A stretch of DNA of 64,000 bases from Jatrophihabitans telluris (GTDB lineage: Bacteria; Actinomycetota; Actinomycetes; Mycobacteriales; Jatrophihabitantaceae). Location of the stretch: the NCBI RefSeq assembly GCF_023516435.1, contig NZ_CP097332.1, forward strand, positions 1,240,001 to 1,304,000, given 5' to 3'. Shown one piece after another: positions 21,160-49,146 of this stretch. Both the position numbers and the translations under genes were made by a program. The notes beneath the pieces were generated by a model, which worked only from the letters and a program-made list of their open reading frames with translations, was not told the origin of the DNA and did no database searches. Position 1 is the first letter of the stretch; the number at the start of each line of letters is the position of its first letter.

Positions 21160-21294
21160 CGCGAATGGGCAGTTCCAGCGCGAATGGGCAGTTACAGATA
21201 TCCATCGCGCGTCGACCCGTCCGCGAATGGGCAGTTCCAGCGCGAATGGGCAGTTACAGGTGCCCATTCGCGCGCGAACTGCCCATTCGCGCTG
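21160..21294. repeat. 19-bp repeats (GCGAATGGGCAGTT core), direct and inverted
   Basis: Two tandem pairs alternate CGCGAATGGGCAGTTCCAG and CGCGAATGGGCAGTTACAG at 21,160-21,197 and 21,222-21,259. Two inverted copies (TGCCCATTCGCG at 21,261; GAACTGCCCATTCGCGCTG at 21,276-21,294) follow directly, so the segment can form long stems. It lies just upstream of the M50-like gene. It is not coding in any convincing frame. Confidence 0.8.
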
Positions 21295-21301
21295 CTGGGA
21301 C

Positions 21302-21398
21302 AGAACATCCCCAGCAACAAGGGCAACGTCAACGGAACATCCCCAGCAACAAGGGCAACGTCAACGGAACATCCCCAGCAACAAGGGCAACGTCAACG
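21302..21398 (-). repeat. 32-bp tandem repeat array A (3 copies), 3' of the amidohydrolase
   Basis: Three copies of exactly 32 bp (21,302-21,333; 21,334-21,365; 21,366-21,397). Each has the core GCAACAAGGGCAACGTCAAC with CCA before it and an 8-bp filler GAACATCC; only the first base of copy 1 differs. The array ends 23 bp from the stop codon of the minus-strand amidohydrolase. Read on that gene's strand it is a GTTG-rich 3' element. The same core occurs in the arrays at 48.7-49.1 kb. Confidence 0.9.
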
Positions 21399-21421
21399 GA
21401 GGGCTGGAGCAAGCAGAAACC

Positions 21422-47825: not shown

Positions 47826-48739
47826 CCGACCCGGTGTCACCGCCGACTCGACGGGGCGTGCACGCACTGCTGCGCGCGGCCCCGGCGGCCGGCGCGGACG
47901 ACGACCCTCGGTTGGCCTTCCGGCTTGGCGCGACATTGCCGCTGCGGGTGGAGTTCCGCCGCCAGCTCAAGCGTCGCCGTACCCAGTGGACCGGGATCTT
48001 CCTGCTGATCCTGCCGATTCTGATGGCCCTGGCGTTCAAGATCGGCGGCGGATCCGGCGACAGCGGCGGCGCGGCGCTGGTCGATCTGGCCACGGACGGC
48101 GCCGGGAACTTCGCCCTGTTCACCGAGTTCGCCTCGGTCGGGTTCCTGCTCGTGGTGATCGTGGCCATGTTCTGCGGTGACACGGTGGCCAGCGAAGCCG
48201 GCTGGTCATCGCTTCGGTACCTGCTCAGCCTGCCTGTTCCTCGAGCGCGGTTGCTTCGACAGAAGCTGCTGGTAGCCCTCGGTTTCAGCTTCGCGGTCAA
48301 CCTGCTGCTGCCCGGATGGGCCTATCTGGTCGGCGGAATCTTCTTCGGCTGGGCTCCGGCTCGTTCGCCGTTCGGCGGGACGTTCAGTTACCTCGCGACC
48401 GTCGAGCGGATGGGCATCGTCGCCGGATACGCCTGCGGGCAGGCCCTGGTCGTGGCGGGGCTGGCCTTCCTGCTCAGCGTGCTGACCGATGCGCCGCTGG
48501 CGGCAGTCGGAGGCGCCACGTTCCTGGTGGTGGTCTCCAACATCCTCGACTCGATCACGGCGCTGAATCCCTACCGGGTCGTGTTGCCCACCCACTTCCA
48601 GTACTCATGGCTCGATGCCCTGACTCCGACGATCTCCTGGGACGACATGGTGCGCGGCAGTTGTCTGGCGCTGATCTACACCGCGGTGTTCCTGACGGCG
48701 GCCTGGATCCGCTTCGCCGACAAGGACATCACCAGCTGA
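47822..48739 (+). CDS. ABC transporter permease (ABC-2 type)
   Basis: 305 aa, ATG at 47822 in a 4-nt overlap with the hydrolase-ATPase. After a cytoplasmic N-terminus (RVEFRRQLKRRRTQW) come six membrane helices (FLLILPILMALAF, VGFLLVVIVAMFCGDTVASEAGWSSLRYLLSLPVPRARLL), the ABC-2 export layout with the conserved region after helix 2. It pairs with the ATPase domain before it. The stop codon touches the 32-bp repeat array. Confidence 0.88.
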   Translation: MTDPVSPPTRRGVHALLRAAPAAGADDDPRLAFRLGATLPLRVEFRRQLKRRRTQWTGIFLLILPILMALAFKIGGGSGDSGGAALVDLATDGAGNFALFTEFASVGFLLVVIVAMFCGDTVASEAGWSSLRYLLSLPVPRARLLRQKLLVALGFSFAVNLLLPGWAYLVGGIFFGWAPARSPFGGTFSYLATVERMGIVAGYACGQALVVAGLAFLLSVLTDAPLAAVGGATFLVVVSNILDSITALNPYRVVLPTHFQYSWLDALTPTISWDDMVRGSCLALIYTAVFLTAAWIRFADKDITS

Positions 48740-48913
48740 CGTTGACGTTGCCCTTGTTGCTGGCAGCCTGGCGTTGACGTTGCCCTTGTTGCTGGCAGCC
48801 TGGCGTTGACGTTGCCCTTGTTGCTGGCAGCCTGGCGTTGACGTTGCCCTTGTTGCTGGCAGCGTGGCCTTTACGTTGCCCTTGTTGCTGGCAGCCTGAC
48901 GTTGACGTTGCCG
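48740..48913 (+). repeat. 32-bp tandem repeat array B (5.4 copies), directly after the permease stop
   Basis: Unit boundaries at 48,740, 48,772, 48,804, 48,836, 48,868 and a partial unit from 48,900. The first three copies are identical; copy 4 has one change (CGTGG), copy 5 a changed start. Unit: CGTTGACGTTGCCCTTGTTG then CTGG and the filler CAGCCTGG. The reverse complement holds the same core as array A. The first copy begins the base after the permease TGA. Confidence 0.93.
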
Positions 48914-48922
48914 GTAGTACCC

Positions 48923-49146
48923 GCAACGAGGGCAACCTCAACGCAAGGGTTCGAGCAACGAGGGCAACCTCAACGCAAGGGTCCGAGCAACGAGGGCAAC
49001 CTCAACCCAAGGGTCCGAGCAACGAGGGCAACCTCAACGCAAGGGTTCCCGCAACGACGGCAACCTCAACGCAAGGGTTCGAGCAACGAGGGCAACCTCA
49101 ACGCAAGGGTTCGAGCAATGAGGGCAACCTCGACGCAGGGGTCAGG
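48923..49146 (-). repeat. 32-bp tandem repeat array C (7 copies), running into the UDP-glucose dehydrogenase stop
   Basis: Seven 32-bp units starting at 48,923, 48,955, 48,987, 49,019, 49,051, 49,083 and 49,115. The core GCAACGAGGGCAACCTCAAC differs from array A at two bases within this 20-mer (three across the 24-bp core). The filler is CAAGGGTT. The last unit is degenerate and overlaps the stop codon of the minus-strand gene at 49,142. Arrays B and C fill the entire convergent gap, oppositely oriented. Confidence 0.93.

Follow-up and report, generated by a model that had tools for sequence, protein, structure and literature searches.

A lineage-specific family of short interspersed repeats at gene 3′ ends in an actinobacterial genome, probably working like REP/BIME elements

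What are the tandem repeats that lie against the stop codons of two convergent genes at this locus, and why are they found there? In the window, by which we mean the whole 64,000-nt stretch of DNA that was analyzed, we recovered all three arrays with a 32-bp period reported in the initial annotation (A, B, and C; Table 1), and the identities it had given to their neighbors, an ABC-2 permease, ugd and an amidohydrolase, were borne out. The repeats had been called exact, which holds for A and not for B or C. The unit, described as a 24-bp core with an 8-bp filler, is instead made of a 20-nt core (21 nt with a leading C) and about 12 nt of filler specific to each array. B also has a sixth, degenerate unit, which faces C tail-to-tail across a 2-nt center, so that B and C constitute a single inverted structure. 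For the reasons given below, we regard these arrays as part of a lineage-specific family of short interspersed repeats, REP/BIME-like in its working, with a probability of about 0.62.

Table 1. Repeat arrays in the window and the genes adjoining them (positions are those of the window).
Feature	Position	Strand	Remarks
Array A	21303-21400 (three cores 21314..21397)	-	3.1 copies, period 32, 100% matches
Array B, repeat extent	48736-48912	+	5.5 copies, 94% matches
Array B, five 20-nt cores (48741, 48773, 48805, 48837, 48869)	48741..48888	+	period 32, filler TGGCAGCCTGGC
Array B, sixth core, degenerate, tail towards C	48901..48920	+	sequence reading; B scored as n=6
2-nt center of the tail-to-tail B/C join	48921..48922	.	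sequence reading; spacing class 22/23
Array C, seven cores	48923..49134 (repeat extent 48923-49142)	-	period 32, 6.9 copies, 93% matches, TCGAACCCTTGC-type filler
ABC-2 type permease, 293 aa	47858..48739	+	stop 1 nt from first core of array B
UDP-glucose/GDP-mannose dehydrogenase (ugd), 440 aa	49142..50464	-	stop 7 nt from first core of array C
Amidohydrolase, 545 aa	21422..23059	-	array A 24 nt downstream of stop

The core, GTTGASGTTGCCCTYGTTGY, usually preceded by C, is present in 528 copies at no more than one mismatch in the 4.19-Mb host genome. The genome-wide search at up to three mismatches suggested in the initial annotation returned 562 matches, compared with 4 for a backwards control, revealing a large dispersed family; the window holds 14 such matches (0.01 in shuffles). 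Sites 6 (G/C), 15 (T/C), and 20 (C/T) of the core are dimorphic and the remaining sites near-invariant. Its outer end reads CGTT, the four letters being shared by 331, 348, 346, and 336 of 350 cores, in that order. The only stem, GAGG/CCTC as paired by eye, reaches 4 bp at best and is broken by a C at position 6 in 83 of the 350 cores.

The architecture of the family was read from 95 stretches plus the window, about half of the genome, which yielded 102 arrays and 350 cores. Rates per gap were taken from a systematic set only (60 + 20 stretches and the window; 1.66 Mb with 66 arrays, one per 25 kb), because 15 further stretches had partly been picked for known arrays. Genes were called with a home-made codon-usage caller. 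Array density per 0.5-Mb bin peaks at 75 per Mb (3.0-3.5 Mb) and goes down to 20 per Mb elsewhere, bar the 2.0-2.5 Mb bin; there, a single array was seen in the 160 kb sampled, that is, 6 per Mb. The family is lineage-specific among the 61 genomes searched: at no more than one mismatch, the core gave no match in any of eight congeners (completeness 63 to 99%, three of them at most 85% and one of these 63%), and one stray match in each of three other genomes. The exact two-core pattern was absent from viral contigs and from GTDB contigs (a set from which the window's own genome is possibly excluded), and core arrays gave no match to phages. Two plasmid records, from Mycoplasmopsis and Shewanella, matched 35-44% of the query at 68-71%. 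A phage or plasmid origin was dropped, the viral contigs and phages being empty and the plasmid matches partial. At gathering thresholds, no known RNA family was found in the window or in seven array loci, and 10 array loci contained no tRNA gene.

The arrays, of 1 to 10 cores each, are head-to-tail runs with at most one tail-to-tail center, and direct-only arrays are common. Of 248 direct spacings between cores, 247 fall within 31-33, the lone exception, 42, coming from the single in-gene array. A spacing near 64 never occurs in this set, which means that detected cores have no decayed unit between them; detection by likeness to the core is biased against decayed copies, and this check covers the interiors of arrays. 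Inverted neighbors within 160 bp are tail-to-tail in 32 of 32 cases and never head-to-head, with center spacings of 22/23 (19 pairs), 32-34 (10 pairs), and 53, 75, and 84 (one pair each), and the usual spacer of such a pair is 2 or 12-14 nt. Each of the 18 single cores has an inverted partner within 140 bp, such that the sample contains no lone core. The two arms of inverted pairs agree at two of the dimorphic sites in 14 of 29 cases compared with a shuffled mean of 9.1 (P = 0.03), a weak signal.

Rather than lying at random relative to stop codons, or inside genes, the arrays concentrate at gene 3′ ends, as the initial annotation had supposed, and only 1 of 102 is within a called gene. In the systematic set they are found in 25 of the 209 convergent gaps, 17 of the 932 co-directional ones, and 2 of the 224 divergent ones; the excess in convergent gaps over all others (25/209 vs. 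19/1156) corresponds to an odds ratio of 8.1 (P = 1e-10), while occupancy does not differ significantly between co-directional and divergent gaps (P = 0.56). Over all stretches, 68 gaps carry arrays (37 convergent, 27 co-directional, and 4 divergent), and in 26 of the 27 co-directional ones the array is nearer to the stop than to the next start. A point against the REP/BIME-like reading is that 22 of the 102 arrays have a nearest head-side gene that is not co-oriented with them; correction for two genes missed by the caller brings this to 20, and some of these 20 are inverted partners of a co-oriented array. Three missed genes were added by hand in the gap analysis: two on L081 were profile-scanned, with EamA scoring above its cut-off and DUF1345 below its own, and one on L084 has coordinates that contain stops and affects only the gaps of 3451254 and 3452418. 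The in-gene array lies antisense within the coding frame of an ECF-sigma-like gene (L031:13888-15321), and the spacings of its cores (33, 33, and 42) are each divisible by three.

Gene ends are also built into the repeat. In 19 of 102 arrays, the TGA of the first core is the stop codon of the adjoining gene, and no called gene ends elsewhere within any of the 102 arrays; the repeat has thus taken over the stop codons of 19 genes. The encoded proteins end with Arg (CGT TGA) in 18 of these 19 cases and with Ser in the other, while random frames would put one third in the CGT TGA frame. Such a skew can result if longer tails are selected against, or it can follow from how arrays originate. For three of these genes, truA-, HIT-, and methyltransferase-like as judged by eye, the readable congener ends are only a few codons away from the corresponding position and have no repeat; for a fumarase-like gene, also by eye, the stop present in the congener G002 is lost in the host genome.

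Comparison of neighboring units separates the core from its filler. Across 144 pairs of neighboring internal units, all 32 bp apart and none from the in-gene array, the filler differs in 195 of 1728 comparisons. The core does so in 74 of 2880; leaving out its three dimorphic sites, a choice made post hoc, brings this to 36 of 2448. The difference in rate is 4-fold, and 8-fold without the dimorphic sites (P about 1e-43 for the latter). Since the core varies 4-8 times less than the filler, the core is constrained: it has been kept while the filler drifted, perhaps by host selection and perhaps by a copying process, and a host function could, as an alternative to a copying signal, account for its tight conservation. 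The fillers of neighboring units are 84-96% alike per position (79 pairs) and unlike between arrays. Among 44 of the 53 systematic-set arrays with two or more cores, those in which all fillers are 12 nt long, a few nucleotides immediately upstream of the first core and ~8 nt immediately downstream of the last one agree with the filler of the same array above shuffled pairings. By our estimate from per-position counts, the two flank matches together fall short of 12 nt, where 24 would be needed for a two-sided 12-bp target duplication. A 32-bp stretch, core plus local flank, duplicated in tandem fits better, and duplication of the whole 12-nt filler as a target site was rejected on the same count. 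The exclusion of a CRISPR in the initial annotation was upheld, because fillers recur within an array, unlike the unique spacers that separate identical CRISPR repeats.

MIRU repeats of mycobacteria are likewise tandem, intergenic, and linked to TGA stop sites, but have larger units and lie within operons. The literature covered by our search contained no report of the GTTGASGTTGCCCTYGTTGY core family itself. The statement that no such family is known, however, does not stand, since published REP and BIME repeats share its location, stop donation, tandem reiteration, and intragenic copies, as described in PMC3733652 (Di Nocera and colleagues) and PMC2817692 (Nunvar and colleagues). According to the former, REPs tagged with GTAG or CGTC are found mainly between convergent and unidirectional genes, downstream of coding regions; the termini of GTAG REPs often supply the stop codon of flanking genes; REPs form dimers and clusters reiterated in tandem together with flanking DNA, with intragenic copies in several species; and there are CGTC families without a known dedicated transposase. 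The core family resembles them in being short, high in copy number, extragenic, and lineage-restricted (some REP families are species-specific, PMC3733652), as well as in its 3′ location, stop donation, tandem reiteration with flanking DNA, and occasional intragenic copy. It differs in its stem of at most 4 bp, compared with about 5-13 bp for REP palindromes (PMC3733652), in its CGTT end in place of an unpaired GTAG or CGTC tag, in its near-fixed 32-bp period, and in its actinobacterial host, the word “actinobacteria” being absent from the main text of PMC3733652.

The segments between repeats likewise differ from cluster to cluster in BIMEs and BIME-2, where inter-REP segments are unrelated between clusters and four hold the 3′ end of a rayt gene (PMC2817692); the REPs of BIMEs, however, alternate in orientation and are tied to RAYT, while core arrays run head-to-tail. 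The likely unit of REPINs, an inverted doublet, recalls the tail-to-tail pairs, yet in the genome described in PMC3116915 the doublets are 71 or 110 bp apart, compared with the much shorter usual spacer of core pairs; direct-only arrays are moreover common, and no RAYT was found in the host genome. The Y1 transposase profile (PF01797, RAYT) gave no match there at E ≤ 0.001, with a positive control in 5 of 14 genomes, including Escherichia coli. Since stem, tag, alternation, and RAYT all fail, we file the family, which on its sequence features works like REP/BIME, as a variant rather than a member.

According to the REP/BIME-like reading, the repeated item is the 20-nt core, seen in the sample only in groups of at least two, arranged head-to-tail at 32 bp or as a tail-to-tail palindrome. 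About 12 nt of local flank would be captured with the core and then repeated as array-specific filler; the bias of the arrays towards gene 3′ ends, above all those of convergent pairs, would reflect the sites at which insertion is least harmful; and the in-frame TGA at the core's outer end could take over from the native stop. A dedicated factor may copy or bind the core, the family may have spread through a copying process, and the arrays may help terminate or insulate transcription between convergent genes. If true, REP/BIME-like dynamics would extend beyond the RAYT system, and 102 arrays in about half of a genome would serve as natural replicates for what copies or protects a 20-nt word amid drifting filler.

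An alternative, which we find unlikely, is that the arrays are sites for a candidate DNA-binding protein (a roadblock, gyrase-like, or nucleoid protein) by which convergent genes are insulated, the core being maintained through host selection. The core constraint within arrays, a fixed period close to three turns of the helix, and the absence of lone cores are in line with such sites, as are the inverted spacings of 22/23, 32-34, 53, 75, and 84, which suit a 10.5-bp period (P about 0.003). This fit is suggestive only, as it uses five spacing classes picked after the data were seen, the last three of which consist of one pair each. Against this explanation, the spacings of the in-gene array indicate that a period of 32 is not obligatory, no protein was identified, and the core is absent from the eight congeners.

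Somewhat more doubtful is the idea that transcription from the upstream gene runs into the arrays, which would then work as RNA or, where genes converge, as a bidirectional terminator. The initial annotation had proposed a 3′-UTR element from the observation that three of three arrays have the same polarity relative to the neighboring gene. However, B and C share one convergent gap, which leaves A as the only test of polarity; any array, indeed any repeat, in a convergent gap is sense to one of the adjoining genes, so polarity can be tested only in co-directional gaps. There, the strand tabulation that had been called for gave 13 gaps with sense arrays only, 5 with antisense only, and 9 with both, an excess of sense that is not significant (P = 0.10); proximity to the stop was verified and polarity was not, and we rejected the latter as a rule since it is mostly geometric.

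Other features favor such a role: besides the marked preference for gene 3′ ends and convergent gaps, the 32 innermost tail-to-tail palindromes fold into long hairpins, with a mean of -34 kcal/mol, and among the systematic-sample convergent gaps that measure 20-450 bp, 16 of the 23 bearing arrays contain both orientations. A hairpin of 11 paired bases (loop 3-9) was found in 16 of 127 array-free convergent gaps vs. 0 of 127 shuffles; of the 23 array-bearing gaps, 2 have one that is separate from the array. REPs, too, are reported in PMC2817692 to aid Rho-dependent termination. On the other hand, direct-only arrays (n = 34) have a weak sense-strand fold, with a mean z of -0.9 vs. shuffles, compared with -2.1 for the antisense strand, and three arrays (144609, 541633, and 574755) lie beyond a strong hairpin. 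Unlike an intrinsic terminator, in which a GC hairpin is followed by a T-run, none of the 102 arrays has a T4 run within the next 12 nt, although tail-to-tail centers do fold. Congeners, moreover, do without the repeat wherever the gap was readable. The 3′-end location thus stands, while a 3′-UTR RNA role of the arrays is weakly supported.

Plain minisatellites made by replication slippage, with a core that nothing recognizes, are highly improbable, for although slippage suits fillers that are alike within and unlike between arrays and array sizes of 1 to 10 cores, it alone accounts neither for one 20-nt core in 68 sampled gaps nor for a common 32-bp period, and the 4-8 times lower variability of the core relative to the adjoining filler speaks strongly against it.

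Two further candidates were also set aside. Array neighbors 100-4000 bp apart were listed together with the genes called between them; judged by eye, none of the ORFs within two of these pairs looked like a transposase, and an autonomous element flanked by TIRs was rejected. A retron-like reverse transcriptase (L138:1279-2586) is the sole RVT_1 match in the host genome, and RVT_1 is present in two of the eight congeners. This enzyme lies ~2.4 kb from an array, yet no link was found, and the proximity is uninformative because arrays average one per 25 kb.

Comparison with relatives was possible at a limited set of sites, 8 of 76 queried array-flanking genes having matched the relatives' stretches; among the orthologous gaps that could be read, the core repeat was absent from the congeners. 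One such gap measures 27 bp in G006, while G002 and G003 carry other short repeats there. In G004 and G006 we found an unrelated 53-bp palindrome with CCCGATCGTGTAACA ends (CCCGATCGTGTAACA...TGTTACACGATCGGG), which at no more than one mismatch occurs 68 times in G004, 60 in G006, 3 in G001, once each in G007 and the host genome (G000), and not in the other four. Its own TAA ends a flanking gene in 6 of the 15 copies read (L206, L207, L210, L213, L214, L216-L219, L221, L222, L226, L227, L181, and L183, all from G004/G006), two of the six being the same gene in sister species. We tentatively propose that the lineage has a non-RAYT factor which recognizes the 20-nt core and, at the 3′ ends of genes, keeps or copies it 32 bp at a time with local DNA as filler, and that, as unrelated palindromes occupy like places in congeners, gene ends in this genus might have been colonized repeatedly by stop-bearing elements, maybe bidirectional insulators.

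Smaller repeat families were also seen. In the window, positions 21160-21290 hold a second one, GCGAATGGGCAGTT, with a direct period of 19 and then an inverted part; at no more than two mismatches it has 51 matches in ~1.95 Mb (6 for the reversed control), forming 17 clusters, 6 of them with more than one match, while the single matches are mostly intragenic and may be due to chance. G007 carries a third motif, GGCGTCATGACGC..TGGGCAT (L198-L203), with nine matches at no more than two mismatches and none in seven other genomes searched. Given that separate palindromes and motifs are found in different congeners, short repeats differ between species of the genus.
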